In this document: in pieces, positions 1 through 10,400 of the stretch
Numbering within the stretch: the stretch's first letter is position 1
How the letters are laid out: each line of letters starts with the position of its first letter
NCBI GenBank assembly: GCA_001600635.1
Contig: BCKL01000007.1
Location: 20,363-84,362 of the forward strand
Source of the DNA: Leucosporidium creatinivorum
Lineage: Eukaryota; Basidiomycota; Microbotryomycetes; Leucosporidiales; Leucosporidiaceae
Reading direction: 5' to 3'
Length of the DNA stretch: 64,000 nucleotides
The notes under the pieces: generated by a model
Told to the model about the DNA's origin: nothing
The model's input: the letters and a program-made list of their open reading frames with translations, nothing else
The model's database searches: none
Made by a program: the position numbers and the translations under genes

Positions 1-873
1 GGTGGTGGGGCACCTGGAAGCGAAGGACAGGGTCAGGTCGGCTTCGGCGCTCCTTCCACTCGTTCAGAGGGACTCACTTGTGCTGCTCGCAGACATCCTC
101 GTGCGCTTGGACGCCACTGCGAAGGTACTTCCCCTTGCCTTGCCCTCCACAATCGCATCCGCCTTGAGGGCAGACAATCTCCTCCCAGTCGCACTCGTCT
201 TTGAGATGAGTTGCGAGGCGAGCTTGGGCGACGAGAGTGGTGCAGCCTTGCGTAGCGTTCGGGCAGGGGTGGGGCTCTTGGGTGCACTTTGCGAGTAGGC
301 AGCGTCAGCTCGGCGGTGAATCGGTTGAAGGCCGAGAAAAGCTCACGGCCGAGGTGAGGTGTGGAGCGAGCTCGGTGTACTCGCCCGTCCAGCTGCAGCG
401 TTCGTGAGAGCACTTGCACCTATCGAAACGGGACTCGGATCAGCTCTCAGTACTGGTGAAGTCTTCTCCGACCTCTCCACTAACCTCAAAGCTCCGGTCA
501 TCCTCTCAATCGCGAGCGAGATCTGGACGTCGCTGTGTCCGACGGTCTGCCTACACGTCGGGCAGTCCTGCCTTCCGCTATTCAACCAGGAGATTAAGCA
601 GCTCGAGCAGAAGGTATGCTGCTCTCGGCAAGCGAAGGCGGGCTTGCTGAAAACGTCCTGGCAGACTGAGAGCGATTCGAGGTCAGCGCTCGTGCAAGGA
701 GAGGGAGGGGAGCAGGCAGATGTACTCGGACAGACGAAAATGGAAGTCGCATCGCTGAGGAACAAGTCTGAGGCGATTCCGGGCACTGCAGAGCCGAGGG
801 CGAGTCAGCTTCGAGCAAGCGGGTGCGAGCTCTTCCAAATCGTGCAGGGGAGTCAGAAAAAGAAGAGCTCACT
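1..873 (-). CDS. RING and TRAF-type zinc finger protein, copy A (3' end cut by the window edge)
   Basis: Likely a RING-type E3 ubiquitin ligase-like protein with TRAF zinc fingers. Spliced by eye, the protein begins MPGIASDLFLSDATSIFVCP, then a RING (CPICQD, then CREQHTFCSSC, then CPTCRQ), then Cys/His fingers (CSHERCSW, HPCPNATQGC, CPQGGCDCGG, VCEQHKCP). The start codon is split: A is at 873 and TG at 785-784, with an 87-nt intron between. No ATG is visible in the exon upstream. The RING exons are joined by introns with GT donors and CTGAC branch sites. It lies head-to-tail with copy B and shares its exon plan and flanks with B, C and D. The RING/TRAF fold is directly visible; ligase activity is inferred from the family. 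The substrate is unknown. Confidence 0.8.
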
Positions 874-1207
874 GTTGAGAATGTGTAGCAGCCTCTAGAG
901 AGCCTTGAGTGCGTCCCTTAGCCGCTATCGTCGGGTCGAAGCTGGAAACGAGCGAGTGGTTGGAAGCCATGAGACGAGGCGAGCTGAATTCGAGCTCTCA
1001 TCTGGGGAGGAAGAGGGGAGGCGTCCGCTTATTTCGCAGTCGTTTCAAGCTCTCAAGCTCGAGTGGGTTCGATGGTGTACAGGATCATCGACTGTGCAGA
1101 GCACTGGTTAACCTCTCATGTCTCTCTGATGCCGCTCAAAGAGGACTCTCAAAAGCTCGGCGCTTCCATTCGTTCAGCCGCTGCCTCTCTTGGCGACCTG
1201 ACTGCCG
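874..1207. repeat. Intergenic spacer A-B, duplicated as the C-D spacer
   Basis: No gene is seen here. The segment resembles 8043-8368 along most of its length: shared blocks include GTCGAAGCTGG, AACGAGCGAGTGGT, and CCTCTCAT followed by ATGCCGCTC. It therefore belongs to the two-gene duplication. It contains the 5' leader exon of copy A and the 3' flank of copy B. Confidence 0.75.
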
Positions 1208-2624
1208 CTAGATCAGCTCATGCTTCTCACACTTCCCGCACTTCCCATCGAGGCTCAACGCGGCGTCTGCACAGCAGAACTTGCGCTTCTTGACCGTGCT
1301 GCTCGGCGACTCTCCCGCGCCGAAGACGGCGGCAGACGAGATGGGAGAGGCGGGGCGTTTGCCCTGTGCGTTCACATCGGTTCGGTGAGCTATGTTTCAG
1401 AACGTGAGATCAAGACTCACGAGAGCGAATCCTCGAGGCGGGAAAGCAGCTTGCGTGCTCTGCACGATCCAGCTCGGCGAAGGCATCACCAAGGGAGGCA
1501 GATCGAAGGACGGGTGAGCATCGAGAGCAGCGGTCGGAGGTGTAGCGGGTTGCTTGAGTAGGTCGAGGTCCATGCGTCGTCCCTCGAGCGCCTTGACGCG
1601 AGCGTTGGCAGCCGCGAGTTCCTCCGTCAACGAGCGCACTTGGGCGTTGGCCGTGTCGGTCGCTCGTGCAGCCGCAGTGCATCCAGGGGAGTGTAGCCGA
1701 AGCGTACTGAGAGTCCCGGTCGTGGTGCAGAGAGGAGAGATGGCGCAGCTGTGGCCGTAACATTGAGATGTGAGCGCAGGCTCGGCGAAAGCGAGCGCGA
1801 TGAAACGAGCTCACCGATGATTCACGCAGGTGTACATGTGCGAAAGGATGTCCTTGCGAAGGTACACTCCTCCTCTGTGCTTGCCTCCACAGTCTCGGCC
1901 TCCCCGAGGGCAGGTGGCAGACTCGAACGGGCAGACGATTCGGTGAGCGAGGAGGCCGAGCGCCGAGACGCGGGTCGGGCAGCCCATAAAGCCGTTGGGG
2001 CACGGTCGAGGGTGATAGTTGCACTATGAAAGCAGAAAGAGGTAAGTGGAGAGCGTCGGGGGCTGTCTGAGTCCGAAAGGAGCCCACCGACGAGTCGAGA
2101 TGCGAAGCGAGCTCCGAGTGCTCGCCTTGCCATCTGCACTCGTCGTAGTTGCAGAAGACCCTGGAGATCAACGCGAGGTCAGCTCCCTCCTCGATGTTGT
2201 CACAAGCGAAGCAGCGCACTCCAGCCTTCCGACCATGCGATCCAGCAAGGGCATGGGCGTGAAGTCGGCTTCGTAGATGGCTCGCCTACAGCTCGGGCAC
2301 TTGAGGATGTCTCGGTCGTCTGCTTGGATACTGTACGTCTCCAGGCAGACCTTGCAGTAGACGTGCTGGCTCTCGCAACCCGTCCAGGTCGCTCGGTCGA
2401 GCGCGTCGAGGCAGACTGCACGAGAGTAGGCGGTCAGCGGGACGAGCTCCCGAGATGTGTGAGCAGTCTTATCTCACTCGAGCACATGAGATCGGGTCCC
2501 ACACCCTCGACGAAGCTTTCCAACGAGATTCCCACTGCGAGAGACGAGGAAGCGGTCAGTTGTGCTCGACAATCGCTAAGTGGGGGAGGAGGGGCGCTTT
2601 AGGAGTGTACAGAGAGGACTCACT
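1208..2624 (-). CDS. RING and TRAF-type zinc finger protein, copy B (complete)
   Basis: This is the best-preserved member of the family. The spliced product starts MGISLESFVEGVGPDLMCS, then a C3HC4-type RING (CSICLDALDR, CESQHVYCKVC, CPSCRR). TRAF-type fingers follow (CNYDECRWQGEH, CNYHPRPCPNGFMGC, CPRGGRDCGGKHRGG), then a Cys finger (CAISPLCTT), a predicted coiled coil (VRSLTEELAAANARVKALEG) and a short Cys-rich tail (KFCCADAALSLDGKCGKCEK) ending in TAG. The start codon is split: A at 2624, TG at 2534-2533, with an 89-nt intron containing CTGAC. RING plus TRAF fingers plus coiled coil is the layout of TRAF-like ubiquitin ligases. That function is family knowledge, not shown here. The N-terminus is conserved with copy D, which supports this start. 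Confidence 0.85.
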
Positions 2625-3260
2625 GTCTGCTGTAGCTGCTGAGGCGCTGAACGAAGCGAGCTGGCGAGTCGAGTCGGAAACGAGCGAGTGGTCAAAGCGT
2701 GAGAGACGGGGCGAGGTTCGAGCTCGAAGGAAGAGTGGGAGAGGCAGAGGCCAGCTGAGGCCAGCTGCAGGTTACTCTACGAGCGGAGAATGCGATATCA
2801 AGCTTCAAAAATGACCTCTAGGTTCGCTGAGCTCACTGTACGAGAGTCTGTCGCTCTCTCACCCTCTCGCTGCGAAGCTCGGCGCCGAGTGGGCTGCTGG
2901 CTGCTGTAGCTCGTTGTCCTCTACATCGCAGGACCGTCACGAGGTTAGGTCCATACACAAGCTCTGTTTCTCCCTCATACCCATCCGAGCTCATCGGACA
3001 TCTTGCTCCGTCTCTCAGCTCTCCCCTTCGCCGAGCTCTCTCCCTCCGATGTTCGATGAATCAAAAGCTGATTACAAAGTCTTATGAAAGAGGAAAAGGG
3101 GGTGGGAGTACACGTACAAATCGTAGAACGAGAGACGCGGGAAGGCAAGCTACAAACAGCACTATACAAGAGAAGAGGGGCGATGTTAAGGAGCGCCGAG
3201 CCTCGCCGAACCCAGCGTCGCAGGAGGGGTGGGCTTGGGATATAGAGAGGTGGAAGGTGC
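2625..3260. repeat. Duplicated upstream flank of copy B (matches 9775-10400)
   Basis: No gene is supported. The segment aligns by eye with the upstream side of copy D. Matching blocks include GAGCTCACTGTACGAGA, GCGAAGCTCGGCGCCGA, AGTCTTATGAA and ACAGCACTATAC. In the other block this sequence lies between copy D and the 3' end of the STF2-like gene, so the copy here appears to carry part of a former neighbour's 3' flank. Confidence 0.75.
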
Positions 3261-6200
3261 GGAAAGTGATACAAGTGGAAATAGGTCGTGTGGAAGGCGA
3301 AGACCTCGCCGACTAGCTCGCCGAGAGGACTAGCGCTGAAGTCCCCAGGTGCCGAGCAGGGCCGAGCTCTGCCCTCCTCAGCGATAATGACCAGCAGCCT
3401 CGTACGAGAGGCTGGCGCCAGGGGTAAGGGCCAAAAGCTGTCAGCACAGCAGACCAGCGACGTCTCACTAGCTGCCAGCGCCGAAAGCCAGTACTCGCCC
3501 CTCGGCGCGCTCCGCTAATCAGCTCCTCAATAGCCTGCGAGACACTGTGGCGGCATGCGGAAGAGCACAAAGGCGCGCAATCGCCGAGGCTCACTCGCCA
3601 GAAACGAAACAGCGCCCGCTGCCCCTTCCCCGACGAGAGTGGCGGCGCCGAGATCCCTCCTTGCTCGTCCTGTTAGTGAGTCGAGCAGCTCTGCAGCGAG
3701 GTGCACACCAAGCACAGCAGGTGAAGCAAAGATCCGACTTCGCGATCTCGAGCGAGCGCCTCCGCCTTCACTGCGAAGCCATCGCTGAGTTGTGGTCGAG
3801 TCTCTGCTCTTCACCGAGGCCCTTGCCGGCGTGCTCCTCTGAAAGCCCCTTCACCTCACTGATACATCAGGAGCTGACTCAAATCGACTGAATGTGCACA
3901 GCATCAGCTCGCATGATAAAGCGAAGCCCTCCCCGAGCCCGTCGGGCGCAGAGATAGAATCGCCGCGAAGTCGCTACTGCGCCGCTCACGTGCTGATCCC
4001 CTGGCAGCTGTACAGAGATAGCCAGATCTCAGCTAACAGCTCCCGACTCTCGGCCTGATCACGTGCCCTCGACCTCGTGAGTGACCAGGCAGCGCCGCGA
4101 GCGAGAGAGCGCCGAGCGAGAGGGGTGATGCCAACACGCAACCTAATCAGCAGCGCACCTGCAGAGCAGCAGCATCATAGCAAGATCAGCTGGGATAAGA
4201 TCGCTTTGCTGGCTAATGCACCAGCTCCTCCCTCGAGCCTCGAGGAAAAAGCTCGGTGCAAGCGAGGCCGTCGACTCCAGCTTCGAGGAAGTGTCTGAGA
4301 ACCTGCCTTGCGTCCCGTAACGTGCAGGCAGGTTATGCAATGCACAGGGGTTCTCCAACTAGCTCACAGTGAGCGCGTTTCCGACCGAGTCGAACGGGAG
4401 CTCCACCGACGAGAGATGCGAGCTGCTCCCGCTCCTGCGGGGGCGAGCCGAGGAGGGTGCGGATCTGCTTCAGAGCTACAGGCTGCTACAGAGCACGACA
4501 AATGTTCGTTGCCAACTCGCCCAGGTCTTTCTCCGCAGCTCCACCCGCGTCTCAACGAGGGAGACGCGCTAGCGAAGAGAAGCGAGTGTGGGTCGGCTGG
4601 TAGCTGCCACATCCAGACCGCTGTTGCGGCGAGCAGGCAATAGTGCCGATGAGTTCTGACATCGGAGTGTCGCAAAGCAAAGAGCAGGCGCTTCCCACTC
4701 AGCAAAAGCCAAGCGAGGCTACGCTGGCTCCGCGCCGAAGCAAGCCGCTCGTCTCCTGCCTGGTTGAAGGTCAGGAGAGCCTCTGCATCACACGGTCGCG
4801 TGATTCACCGAGTGCTCCACGCGATCGAGAGCACACTTGCTCATCTCCTCGCTGGAGACAGGCGAAGGGCGCAGAGGCGAACTGAGACAGCGAGCACGGT
4901 GACCTGTGGCCTTGCTGGTCCGCATCAAGGGATCGCAGTGGGCATGGTGCCGTTTCAGCAAGAGGTACTCGTCTTCAAAAATGCCCGCCTCTCACACTGC
5001 AGTGAGAGAAGCTCGGCGCTCGAGGCGAGAACGTTCGGCTGCGCTAAGCTGCCAGCGTATAGGGACTACAACAGCTTGGCCAACAGCTGCTCGACCCGAA
5101 GGCGAACGGAGTGGCCCCTCGCATCTCAGCTACGAGGAAGCAGCGCCGAGTCGTGAGGTCGAGTCCTGCTCGGCGAGAGTGAGAACGCGCCGAACCTGGC
5201 GCAGGGCTTCCTTGAGAGGCTCAAGGTCTGGAGCGACGGGTAAGCCTTATGATTCTCACCACTACATCAAACCATCACTACTATCCATCCTTCGCTCCCG
5301 AGGAGGAGAGCCCAGCGAAGGTGAGGCGAAGCGAACACTCGGCTCGGCTAGTGAGCTATAGCTGGCGGGTCCCCGACGAGCCTGGAGCAGTACACTCGTC
5401 CCCCCAGTAAAGGTTAGTAGCTGAACGATCATGCCAACCATAACGAGCCCTCCCCTGCCCAGCTGCCAGCTGAACGAGGACGCGCCCGTTTGAGAGCGTG
5501 GTCGAGTCGAGGCTGCTCAATCGGAGCTGAGCGCTGAGCTGCAGCAGAGCGGGCAAGAGGTGTAGCATCGATACCACAGCTAATACCGCCGCCGCCCGCC
5601 GCAGCTTGTGCTACAGCAAGCGGACAACGGAGAGCGAGTGAGCGGTTGGACGCTACCAGCTGCTGTTCTGTAGTCTATTCCTCAGGTCCTCCCAGCACAC
5701 ACTGTACCAACCTCCAGCTGTAGCACGTCATCCCACTCGCTGTCACTCACCTCTCAGACCTCTCCCTCTCCCGCTGCTCCCTCACTCCCCTTCCCAGTCT
5801 GTTGAGCTGAACCGTGCCAAGTTGTAGTTTGTTCGAGGGCGAATCGCGAGTGGTGAGCTGTTGTTGTGCCGAATAGGAGAGGAGAGGGTGGCAGCTGTAG
5901 CGATCAGAGAGAGCGGGCGAGGGAGAGGCGGAGGAGATGAGAGGGAGAGGCGAGCGGGTGCTGTAGGTGGTTATGTGTGTAGAGCTGAAGTTGTAGCTGA
6001 TTACAAGTCGAATAGGCGTCGTAGCTGACGAGACGAGGTAAAGATGAGGAGAGAGGGAGAGAGCAAAGGAGCAGCTCGGACTTGCAAGTCGGCCAGTGGG
6101 AGAGAAGAGAAGGGGGGGGGGCGAGGTCTGCAGAGGTGCAGGAGAGGAGATGGCGGGCGGCACTAGAAGCTCACGCTGTTTGAGTCTGCTATCAGATCAC

Positions 6201-6675
6201 TCGAAGTAGACCATCGAAAGCTGTGTCTTAGAGCAGAGCAAGACCGAGCTCCCAGCTTTCGACCGAGATGAGGGAGCTGAGAAGGCTACAGGCAGCTCAG
6301 TGAGCTCTTTCGAGTAGCTCAGCCGCTCGGAACTATACAGGCACTCTTTCTCTAGCTCTCTGAGCTCCCCGGCGTGCTTTGTGCTCCCTTCACAGCTTGC
6401 TGAGGACCTCGGCGCCGAGCGTTTGCTTCTCTCCGCCCTCCTCACAGTCTGCCCTGCTCANCGTAAAGGTTCGCAAGCAGCCGNTANACGAGTATTGAGA
6501 TGCCAGAACACCTGCCAGAGCACCGATTCGAGCTCTGAAGAGACGGTGAAGCCGGAGCTCGTCAACGCCGAGCGTTCGTTCGCTGCCGCGGCTCGATGAT
6601 CTCTCGTCAAGTGGCCTCGCCGCATCTACAAGCGCAAACCTGAATGCATTGTTGAACACCAGCGCTCACTACTCT
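3261..6675. other. Gene-poor 3.4 kb stretch between the two RING-TRAF blocks
   Basis: I could not support any gene here. Short open frames exist on both strands, but none has recognisable domains, splice-linked exons or similarity to neighbours. The part 5740-6160 is strongly purine-rich on the plus strand (GAGAGG runs) and includes a ten-G run near 6113. A few undetermined bases occur around 6461-6487. It could be a decayed region or hold non-coding RNA; nothing seen decides this. Confidence 0.5.
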
Positions 6676-8042
6676 TTAGCCACACGACGGAGGTGATGCG
6701 GAGGGAAGACCTTGTGCATGGGCGTCGCCTGAGGAGGANGACGNGGCTTNCGGNGAGGCGGCGGGCNGGGANCNCCNTCACCCTNTNCNANNGNCNGAGN
6801 TCAGCNATCAACTCNGNGAGNNCNAANNGNNNAGCNGGNGCNCACCTGCTNCTTGTCGTTGNCGAGCTGGTCGGCGCCGCGCTTCAAAAAAGTGCCGAGT
6901 CGAAGCGCTGGACGAGGGTGAGGCTGAAGCTGGGGCTGCTCGAGATCCCTCCTTGGTTTGAGCTCGGGCTCCAGCTTCTTGACCTTGTCTTCGAGCGNCT
7001 NGTNCTTNCTGCNGAGCATCTCGTTATCGCGCTCCAACTCGGCGCACCTTGCCTCGGCTTGAGAACGGGCGAGGTCGATGGCTTCGCAGCCGCGACGGTG
7101 CTCTTTGATCATGGAGAAGAGGCCAATGGTAGTGCAGCGTGGGGTGGGGCATCTGTNGGNGAGCTGTNAGTGGGCAAGCGTTGTAGAGGCGCAAGCAAGA
7201 GAGCTCACTTGTGCTGCTCGCAGACCGAAGCATGCGCTACTGCCTCGATACGAAGGTACACGCCCTTGCCCGTTCCTCCACAATCNCGGCCTCCGCGAGG
7301 ACACGNGATCCTGGTGTANNCGCAATCGTGCTTGAGGTGCATCTCGGCGTTCAAGGGGACCACCTGAGCTCGGCAGCCNCNNNNNNNNNNNNNNNNNNNN
7401 NNNNNNNNNNNNNNNNNNNNNNNNNNNNNNNNNNNNNNNNNNNNNNNNNNNNNNNNNNNNNNNNNNNNNNNNNNNNNNNNNNNNNNNNNNNNNNNNNNNN
7501 NNNNNNNNNNNNNNNNNNNNNNNNNNNNNNNNNNNNNNNNNNNNNNNNNNNNNNNNNNNNNNNNNNNNNNNNNNNNNNNNNNNNNNNNNNNNNNNNNNNN
7601 NNNNNNNNNNNNNNNNNNNNNNNNNNNNNNNNNNNNNNNNNNNNNNNNNNNNNNNNNNNNNNNNNNNNNNNNNNNNNNNNNNNNNNNNNNNNNNNNNNNN
7701 NNNNNNNNNNNNNNNNNNNNNNNNNNCCNNNGGTTGTCTCCCCACCCANTCNAACCAGCAGNNCTCGCAGTAGGCGTGAGAGATCGTGCAGCCGCTGAGC
7801 GTAGCTCGGTCGATGACTTCGTGGCAAACTAGAAACGAGCAGGGCTGGTCAGCTCGAACGTTGATGAGCGCTTGACCGAGGTGCAAGCTTACATGTACAG
7901 ATCAGCTCGTCTCCTACATCGTCGAGGAAGAGGTCAGAGTCGATCCACACTGTTTGAGAAGCGAGAGCGAAGTCAGCTTGCGCTCGAGCAGCTCGCAACG
8001 TGCAGCAGCGGGCGCTGTAGGAGACTGGAGAGCAGACTTACT
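6676..8042 (-). CDS. RING and TRAF-type zinc finger protein, copy C (interrupted by an assembly gap)
   Basis: The N-terminus reads MWIDSDLFLDDVGDELICTF, leading into a RING (CHEVIDR, then ISHAYCExCW). The gap at 7381-7726 removes the rest of the RING. TRAF-type sequence then resumes (CPRGGRDCGGTGKG, SVCEQHK), followed by CPTPRCTTIG and a long predicted coiled coil (RSQAEARCAELERDNEML, LEDKVKKLEPELK). The start codon is split: A at 8042, TG at 7949-7948, with a 92-nt intron. The 3' end lies in sequence with many N. A terminal exon ending SASPPSCG and TAA at 6678-6676 is my best guess. It pairs with copy D as A pairs with B. Identity as a family member is firm; the exact end is not. Confidence 0.6.
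7381..7726. other. Assembly gap (run of N)
   Basis: A run of 346 undetermined bases lies inside copy C. Scattered N bases surround it (about 6739-6842, 6998-7011, 7157-7168, 7286-7320, 7379, 7729-7763). The surrounding gene model is therefore incomplete, and local base calls may be poor. Confidence 0.99.
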
Positions 8043-8368
8043 AGGGGGAGGTAGTGCTGTAGCTCCTAGTGAGCTCCAAGTACCGCGAGAATCGAGTCGA
8101 AGCTGGCAACGAGCGAGTGGTCGGAGCGCAAGAAACGAGGCGAGTCGAGTCGGAGCTCTCGTCTCGGAGTCAAAAGGGGTCGTCAAAGTGGCTCCAGCGT
8201 GCTCCAGAGCTCTCAAACCTAGCTAAGAGTAATGATGAACGGGACGCGGGACTTTGCGGAGCGCCAGGGAGCCTCTCATTTCTCTCTCAGATGCCGCTCG
8301 GCGCACGCTTCTGGAAGCTCTGCGCTTCCATTGATCAGAATGGGCTTCTTTCGATGCTCTAACACAGC
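8043..8368. repeat. Intergenic spacer C-D, duplicate of the A-B spacer
   Basis: No gene is seen. The segment matches 874-1207 by eye in several ordered blocks and contains the untranslated first exon of copy C, which ends at 8042 with the A of the split start codon. Confidence 0.75.
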
Positions 8369-9774
8369 CTAGCTAAGCTCGTGCTTCTCACACTTCCCAT
8401 CAAGGCTCAAAGCGGCTTCTGCGCAGCAGAACTTGCGTGTCTCGAAGGGGCCCGGCGAGACAGCCTGAGCGCCGAGGGAGGCGCTGGGCGAGGTGGAAGG
8501 TGCGAAGTTGTTTCCCTGTTGGCATAGGAGGCTTTAGCAAAAGTTCTCGCTCTGCAGGGGAAGATGAGGACTGACCAGGGATCGTCCTTGCGGCGGGAAA
8601 GACGCTCGGCGTCGTGCGCCTTCGGCGAGGCGGTTCGGCGCCGATGAGGTTTTCGGAGCGGATTCGGGAGCGGCGCTGTCGGTCATGGCGGCGACCGAGA
8701 AGCTCTGATACGTCTCCAAACACGTGGTCTGCGCTTCCAGCACCACAATGCGAGCTGTGGCGACGGCGAGTTCCTCGCGCAACGAGCGAACGACCATGTT
8801 GGAAGCGTGCGTCGCTTGGCGCATGGCTGCACATCCTGGAGCATGCTTGGCCAGGGTTTTGAAGGTCCCGATGGTGGTGCAGAGGGGAGAGATGGTGCAT
8901 CTGGTGGTATCACCGGGGGAATAAGCGAGAGCTCGGCGAAAGCGAGAACAAGGACCTGGGCTCACCGCTGACTGGCACACCTCTGGGAGTGCTGTTGAAT
9001 ATCCTGTCGTAGTGTGACGCCTCCTCGGAGCTTGCCGCCGCAATTTTCTCCGCCTCGAGGGCAGGTAACGAGCTCAAACGGACAGGCAGCTCGGTGACCA
9101 GGAAGCGCGAGCGGCGAAATGAGAGTGGGACAGCCGGCTGAAGCGTTTGGGCAGGGCTGGGGATTGTGTTGACACTGTAGTGCGGCAACAGGTGAGCTTG
9201 GTGCTTGGACACTCTCCGTCTCAAGCGAAGCAAAGCTAACCGACGAATCGAGGTGCGAGGCCAACTCCGAGCGCTCGCCTCGCCAAGTGCACTCTCGGTG
9301 CTTGCAGCGAACCCTGTGAGCATAGTATGGATCAGTTTCCTCTTCGTATCATCGTCGAGAGTGACTCGAACTCACTGCAATCTCCCAATCATGCGGTCGA
9401 GCAGCGGCATCGGCGTGAACTTGGTTTTGTAGATGACCCTCCTTCATTCGGGACAGCTCCAGGTTCCTCTGCTTTGCTCGGCTCTCAATCCCATCACACA
9501 GCCTCTGCAGTAGACATGCTGGTCTTCGCACCCGGTCCAGGTGGCTCGGTCGAGGGCGTCCAGGCAGACTGCGCGAGAGCAAGGCGGTCAGCGTAGGTCG
9601 TGACATGAGAGAGCGACTATAGCTTACTGGAGCAGATGAGATCCGGCCCCACTCCCTCAACGAAGCTTTCCAGCGCGATTCCCACTGCGAGAGACGAGGG
9701 AGCGGTCAGCTGTGCTCGACAGTCGTTTCGAGGGAGACGAGGGGCGGTGTCGGAGTGTACAGAGAGGACTCACT
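8369..9774 (-). pseudogene. RING and TRAF-type zinc finger gene, copy D, with a premature stop in the RING
   Basis: Closest relative of copy B with the same exon plan. The start codon is split: A at 9774, TG at 9684-9683, 89-nt intron. The N-terminus reads MGIALESFVEGVGPDLICS. The RING begins CSICLDALDR and CEDQHVYCRGC, but where B has CPSCRR this copy reads CPE-stop-RR. The TGA lies at 9446-9444, at a zinc-binding Cys codon. Downstream exons stay intact: CKHRECTWRGER, CQHNPQPCPNASAGC, CPRGGENCGGK, CTISPLCTT, a coiled coil, and the tail KFCCAEAALSLDGKCEK ending in TAG at 8371-8369. With everything else open, the stop is either a recent inactivation, an undetected splice event or a base-calling error near a poorly assembled region. 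Confidence 0.65.
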
Positions 9775-10400
9775 GTTTTCTATAGCTGCTCAGACGCCGA
9801 ACGAGGAGACCTGGCGAGTCGAAGCTGGAAACGAGTGAGCGGTCGAAGCGCAAGAGACGAGGCGAGGTTCGAGCTCGAAGTTGAGCAGGAGAGGAGAGGC
9901 GAGCTGAGTCGGCTGTAGGCTACTCTCTGAGATGTAGACTGTGCTATCAAGCTTTCAGAACCACCTCTCCGCTCGCCGAGCTCACTGTACGAGACTCTGC
10001 CGCTAGTTCTCTCTCGCTGCGAAGCTCGGCGCCGATTGAGCTGCTTGCTGCTGCCTCGCGGTCTTGTCACTTCCTTCGCCGACGTTGGTCGCCTCGAGGA
10101 GTAGATCGTATGCTGCTTGCATCTCTTTTGGCCCTCGAAGCACCTCGCCGCGCTCCTCGCGCTCTCTCGTCCCACTCGCCTTCCCCGAGCTCCCCCTCAA
10201 CGCCAGGAACGAAAGCGGATTTCAGAGTCTTATGAACGGGGGAAGGAGGGTGGGGCACAAGCACAAATTGAGGAACGATAGACGAGGGAAGGGAAGCTAC
10301 ATACAGCACTATACGAGAGAAGGGGGGGCGATAATGAGAGAGCGCCGAGCATCCTGGCGGCCAGCGTCGCGAAGACGGAGTCCAGCTGGGATCAAGGTGA
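9775..10400. repeat. Upstream flank of copy D, duplicated at 2625-3260
   Basis: Non-coding by eye. It holds the untranslated first exon of copy D and then the 3' flank of the STF2-like gene. The similarity to 2625-3260 runs to roughly 10400, just short of the STF2-like stop codon. Confidence 0.7.

Follow-up and report, generated by a model that had tools for sequence, protein, structure and literature searches.

Why do four neighbouring genes of the basidiomycete Leucosporidium creatinivorum appear to have a start codon cut in two by an intron, and is the cut a regulatory device or an inheritance? The genes form a cluster on the minus strand at positions 1-10400 of a 64,000-nucleotide stretch of contig BCKL01000007.1 (assembly GCA_001600635.1, positions 20,363 to 84,362), hereafter called the window. 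They encode putative RING zinc-finger proteins and are referred to as copies A, B, C and D. An earlier note on this DNA described an A/TG split (a slash marks a splice site) in each copy, and argued that its conservation suggests an old and possibly regulatory intron, whose retention would silence the protein. We consider it likely that the four tandem genes inherited a single start-codon-disrupting spliceosomal intron, phase 1 in codon 1, from an ancestral RING zinc-finger gene through two rounds of duplication, and that this intron is constitutively spliced and kept by ordinary stasis. Introns that disrupt the start codon, in phase 1 or 2 of codon 1, are relatively rare according to the available text of Nielsen and Wernersson 2006 (PMC1626468).

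Start codons predicted to be split by intron 1

The minus-strand sequence of each copy has a leader exon ending in A and a following exon beginning with TG, and the introns between them measure 87 to 92 nucleotides (nt), in agreement with the earlier note (Table 1). The donors are GTGAGC in copy A, GTGAGT in B and D, and GTAAGT in C; all acceptors are CAG, and a CTGAC branch box lies 23-27 nt from the 3' end of the intron in all four copies. By sequence, each copy carries a canonical GT..AG intron with a branch box inside its ATG, which is the make-up of a start-codon-disrupting intron. Intron 1 contains no ATG in any of the four. Between the spliced ATG and the first CxxC motif of the RING lie 16 residues in B, C and D and 17 in A.

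Exon 2 is symmetric in all four copies, 57-60 nt long and delimited by phase 1 introns at the A/TG split and at the first RING CxxC, and its skipping would take away the start. A weaker second donor is located 4 nt downstream of the first (GTRA/GT) at 2619 in B, 8037 in C and 9769 in D, on the minus strand. A 4-nt slip to this donor would still leave an A before the TG, so that the start codon would be kept.

Donor and acceptor matrices were trained on 139 control introns predicted outside the cluster, excluding models inside 1-10400 and models scoring below 15, and both strands of the 64 kilobases (kb) were scanned for A/GT...AG/TG introns between 50 and 120 nt long. Above the 60th percentile of the controls, a threshold picked after the lowest of the four sites was known to lie at the 63rd, the window holds four candidates (four minus, zero plus), all of them the start-codon sites of copies A to D, and 100 first-order Markov surrogates of a 10.5 kb strand hold none. 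Three more thresholds were also run: at the 40th, 20th and 5th percentiles the window count is 4, 5 and 23, and the mean of 40 surrogates of the 10.5 kb strand is 0.03, 0.07 and 1.25. A chance origin of the four junctions is rejected by the surrogate counts. The control introns include two A/TG junctions among 139.

A home-made gene finder that allows whole or split starts produced 22 models, with a split start for copies A and B and for none of the 20 others. Copy A has a low score (5.3); under a stricter intron penalty, which gives 23 models, it is not called and B alone has a split start. Copies C and D have no model at either setting. The score of copy B is 25.3 with the split start versus 15.8 without it. 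When split starts are forbidden, the finder trims B to a second ATG, at 2487, and loses A entirely.

Alternative initiators

Judged from the sequence, a RING-proximal start codon at this site would be made only by splicing in all four copies, as had been claimed. No usable in-frame initiator is found upstream, since every in-frame ATG within 600 nt runs into a stop before the split in each of the four. The further claim that the leader exons are free of ATG holds for B, C and D, with none within 301, 236 and 347 nt of the split, respectively, and fails for A, in which ATGs are positioned 97 and 128 nt upstream (968-970 and 1001-999, minus strand), both out of frame. Similarly, the claim that an unspliced transcript lacks an initiator before the RING is true of A, C and D, whose retained-intron forms have no in-frame ATG there (C is read only to 7760). 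The same statement does not apply to B: its in-frame ATG at 2487 stands right before the first RING cysteine and opens the peptide MCSICL..., from which the RING could be produced without splicing of intron 1.

An in-frame N-terminal extension through the leader was considered and rejected. In A and D, a stop interrupts the leader frame within 10 codons of the start; B and C have leader frames that stay open over 49 and 60 codons, respectively, yet offer no ATG.

Duplication history

Segment 10370-8083 covers copy D together with its upstream region and the C leader, and segment 3221-922 covers copy B, the region upstream of it and the A leader. The two align over 2330 columns, of which 66.7% are identical. 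From this alignment, the most plausible reading of the cluster is a two-gene block present twice, as D-C and as B-A. Because the D-C block aligns with the B-A block, the split start predates both duplications and represents one event rather than four. The encoded proteins are 56% identical between B and D (185/332), 36% between A and D (62/172), and 37% between A and B (64/172). The intron is old, as the earlier note argued, since it predates the separation of A/C from B/D.

Introns 2-4 and the donor of intron 5 occupy homologous sites with the same phase in copies A, B and D, as indicated by exon lengths and junctions; the same is true of intron 6 in B and D, and of intron 2 in C. Since the other comparable introns keep their place and phase, a conserved position of intron 1 is the rule in this family. 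The conserved place loses its value as a regulatory sign, as the other comparable introns are kept equally well and the four sites are one event propagated by duplication.

Splice signals

Splice strength was expressed as a combined donor, acceptor and branch score and ranked against the 139 control introns, leaving out intron 5 of A and introns 3-6 of C. Intron 1 is at the 63rd percentile in A, the 86th in B, the 75th in C and the 86th in D, with a branch score that is maximal in every copy, as its matrix was modelled on CTGAC. It is the top scored intron of each gene: the others range from 6 to 35 in A (three introns), from 11 to 47 in B (five) and from 6 to 63 in D (five), and the only other one scored in C is at 19. 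Weak splice signals are often expected of retained introns without being a strict requirement. The suboptimal signals looked for as a mark of a retention switch were not found in intron 1, given its rank at the 63rd-86th percentile. The high scores therefore favour constitutive removal over a retention switch.

Conservation of the leader and intron 1

A leader box of 22 bases, CGACCACTCGCTCGTTTCCAGC, whose pattern was derived from the four copies themselves, occurs four times in the window with up to three mismatches, once upstream of each copy; the mean in shuffled sequences is 0.00. Identity between A/C and B/D reaches 0.70-0.75 in the four alignment windows over the box, whereas the 14 remaining leader and intron windows range from 0.25 to 0.55. 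The distance from the box to the start codon is 68 nt in A, 49 nt in B, 60 nt in C and 50 nt in D. A coding nature of the box was rejected: the distances do not differ by multiples of three, and the three codon positions hold 9, 5 and 5 of the 19 variable columns.

Copies B and D share 0.80 identity in the leader (aligned bases, that is, leaving out gapped columns; all-column identities were computed too), 77/89 positions in intron 1 and 0.86 in exon 2. The identity is lower in introns 2-6 (175/299; Fisher P = 5.2e-7 versus intron 1) and in exons 3-7 (0.55-0.77). With the splice signals removed, the core of intron 1 is identical at 43/53 positions, versus 70/120 for introns 2-6 (P = 0.005) and 46/101 for gene-wide fourfold sites (P = 1.7e-5). 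Intron 1 of copy A is unlike that of C (0.41), B (0.39) and D (0.44), over all columns in the comparisons with C and B, which counts against a family-wide role. Recent gene conversion of the 5' block of B and D is not favoured, as the exon 2 fourfold sites, few in number, are identical at 3/8 positions. The leader and intron together give a weak consensus RNA fold (-9.07 kcal/mol, with two-sided changes in 2 of 22 pairs), and a tRNA scan and an Rfam scan at gathering thresholds returned no match. The functional part may be located around intron 1, and comprise the leader box as well as intron 1 of copies B and D.

Encoded proteins and state of the copies

In a Pfam scan of copies A and B, both match the family zf-C3HC4, with 35 and 24 bits against a cut-off of 21 bits. 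Eight RING zinc ligands were identified in B by eye. The zf-TRAF scores of 20.5 (B) and 19 (A) are below the cut-off of 27 bits, and the Sina_ZnF scores of 18.9 (B) and 30.8 (A) are below that of 32. TRAF proteins possess a C-terminal MATH/TRAF domain, which is absent among the 15 families listed for full-length B at expectation values (E) up to 1. The nearest solved chains by sequence are the RING regions of LNX and RING2. The label RING-TRAF, given to the genes earlier, describes them fairly, but its TRAF part is below the curated threshold. Copies A and B resemble RING-HC (C3HC4) proteins with TRAF- or Sina-type zinc fingers in passing the zf-C3HC4 cut-off, and differ from them in that zf-TRAF and Sina_ZnF stay under the curated cut-offs.

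The ratio of nonsynonymous to synonymous divergence (dN/dS) between B and D is 0.29 (dS 1.2, near saturation) and suggests that these coding sequences are under purifying selection. The ratios of 0.79 for A-B and 0.50 for A-D come from saturated, shorter alignments, so purifying selection is not established for A. The N-terminal peptide after the split has a dN of 0.047 over codons 1-19 between B and D.

Copy B alone is visible as a whole protein, C being broken by ambiguous bases (N) and A by the window edge. The frame of D is otherwise intact to its end beyond an in-frame stop, and the copy probably represents a recent pseudogene or contains a sequencing error. The N-run and scattered ambiguous bases of C are at 7381-7726 and 6750-6870, where the RING and zinc fingers are unreadable. 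The region 3222-6600 of the window, about 3.4 kb between B and C, has no similarity to the other copies at the alignment threshold and no gene model; the missing model weighs little, as the finder also missed C and D. By impression, the gene content and the short introns fit an intron-rich basidiomycete.

Table 1 Features of the four RING-gene copies, in window coordinates.
Feature	Positions	Strand	Length (nt)	Description
Copy A intron 1	786..872	minus	87	A at 873, TG at 785-784; junction sequence and splice scan
Copy B intron 1	2535..2623	minus	89	A at 2624, TG at 2534-2533; junction sequence and splice scan; chosen by gene finder
Copy C intron 1	7950..8041	minus	92	A at 8042, TG at 7949-7948; junction sequence and splice scan; no gene-finder model for C
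Copy D intron 1	9685..9773	minus	89	A at 9774, TG at 9684-9683; junction sequence and splice scan; no gene-finder model for D
Copy A exon 2	726..785	minus	60	from the TG of the start codon to the first CxxC of the RING; phase 1 at its end
Copy B exon 2	2478..2534	minus	57	holds in-frame ATG 2487-2485 directly before RING
Copy C exon 2	7893..7949	minus	57	
Copy D exon 2	9628..9684	minus	57	
Copy A, intron 2 onward	1..725	minus		ends at window edge
Copy B, introns 2-6 and exons 3-7	1208..2477	minus		with exons 1/2, RING protein of 339 residues
Copy C, remainder	6680..7892	minus		about 350 consecutive Ns and further scattered ones; lower boundary approximate, placed by eye
Copy D, introns 2-6 and exons 3-7	8372..9627	minus		in-frame stop 9446-9444 at last RING zinc ligand
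Leader box, copy A	941..962	minus		1 mismatch to 22-mer
Leader box, copy B	2673..2694	minus		3 mismatches
Leader box, copy C	8102..8123	minus		1 mismatch
Leader box, copy D	9824..9845	minus		2 mismatches

Discussion

If the intron was inherited as we propose, the pre-mRNA of each gene would start in a non-coding leader, and the spliceosome would link the A at the end of the leader exon to the TG that opens the 57-60 nt exon. The joined AUG would be the sole in-frame AUG before the RING in copies A, C and D, and in B it would be accompanied by a second one directly before the RING. Splicing of intron 1 would be efficient and constitutive, and the persistence of the intron would reflect ordinary stasis, perhaps with help from a function of the leader and intron close to the promoter, such as intron-mediated enhancement, most visibly in B and D. 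What is observed, and what this reading builds on, are the sequences of the junctions with their splice signals, the reading frames, the duplicated block, and the sites that the other comparable introns have in common. The split start can be accounted for without a retention switch.

The putative start-codon intron belongs to a rare but already known type, found here in a small tandem family. It resembles the start-codon-disrupting introns of PMC1626468 in its position inside the ATG and in the production of the start codon by splicing. The difference is that it is common to a four-member tandem family, whereas the available text of that paper gives frequencies without mention of such a family. 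In the yeast Yarrowia lipolytica, 42 of 2421 classified introns have a 5' splice site that follows the A, the T or the G of the start codon; their splicing efficiency is high, and the genes have high, steady expression, according to the accessible part of PMC13309789. The location class is the same, and the strong splice scores of intron 1 fit the efficient splicing in Yarrowia. However, the Yarrowia class, as described there, includes introns directly behind the ATG as well as those that split it, and the median Yarrowia intron is 196 nt long, versus 87-92 nt for intron 1. In PMC10742623, start codon introns are mentioned for three stilbene synthase genes of peanut, where they may be problems of gene prediction, and PMC6679479 deals with an intron directly after the ATG. 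No paralogue family that keeps a split start is among the literature matches listed, in a search with most subscription journals outside it, and the matches listed contain nothing relevant on RING/TRAF expansion in Basidiomycota, as judged by title and start of abstract.

Were the genes mis-modelled, translation would start elsewhere and the four A/TG junctions would go unused. The in-frame ATG of B at 2487 and the upstream, out-of-frame ATGs of A would agree with such an error, as would the failure of the gene finder to call C and D and its calling of A at one of two settings only. Nevertheless, A, C and D have no other in-frame ATG before the RING, the four junctions are alone in the 64 kb at the 60th-percentile threshold, and the peptide that follows the split shows high conservation in the B/D pair, which leaves a mis-modelled gene very improbable. 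Regulated retention, in which intron 1 would be left in to silence the RING proteins by removing their start codon, appears unlikely. It would be served by the lack of an in-frame ATG before the RING in retained A, C and D, by introns 1 free of ATG in all four copies, and by the unusual conservation of the leader and intron 1 between B and D. In Cryptococcus, also a basidiomycete, alternative splicing is said to touch nearly all expressed genes, and introns of untranslated regions are retained more than those of open reading frames (PMC5006051, in the part of the text available). Against retention stand the top rank of intron 1 among the scored introns of each gene, the in-frame ATG that B would keep before its RING, the low conservation of intron 1 between A and C and between A and B, the stop that already breaks D, and the efficient splicing of start-codon introns in highly expressed Yarrowia genes, as reported in the accessible part of PMC13309789. 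The idea of the earlier note that retention silences the protein is disfavoured by the splice scores, by the initiator of B and by the state of D. We are similarly doubtful about a splicing gate on a small E3-ligase-like family, in which the leader box and a constrained start-codon intron would let only processed mRNA make the RING, and the second start of B would give a splicing-independent short form. A regulatory reading of the split start is possible, and is not the one we favour.

Several points weigh against an inherited intron kept by stasis. The gene finder was seeded with the splice sites of these same genes, the branch matrix was set by hand to give CTGAC the top score, and the 139 introns used as controls are predicted ones. 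Intron 1 of B and D, as aligned, is more conserved than introns 2-6 and the fourfold sites, an excess that plain neutral stasis cannot account for. Intron 1 of C, too, resembles that of B (0.61) and D (0.59) over all columns, compared to 0.48 and 0.50 for intron 2. The leader and intron 1 could constitute a promoter-proximal enhancer or regulatory module, acting by intron-mediated enhancement or as a DNA or RNA element, with the split codon as a by-product. Such a module is compatible with an inherited and constitutively spliced intron, and we regard it as a tentative possibility, more probable than retention and still well short of even. It is suggested by the occurrence of the leader box at these four genes only, with none expected from the shuffles, by the identity of the box across the two gene types, and by the excess of identity in the B/D intron 1 core over fourfold sites. 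Conversely, the paralogues compared number two or four, B and D may share a local conversion tract given the few fourfold sites of exon 2, intron 1 of A lacks the conservation, and the consensus fold is weak. A regulatory role of the leader and intron 1, above all in B and D, is possible.

The cluster carries a warning for annotation, as a gene finder that forbids split starts cut copy B short and missed copy A. The split start was kept through two duplications, and the four genes provide a natural set for asking whether such introns persist by inertia or for a function. The leader box, together with the constraint on B and D, is the part of this family most worth following.

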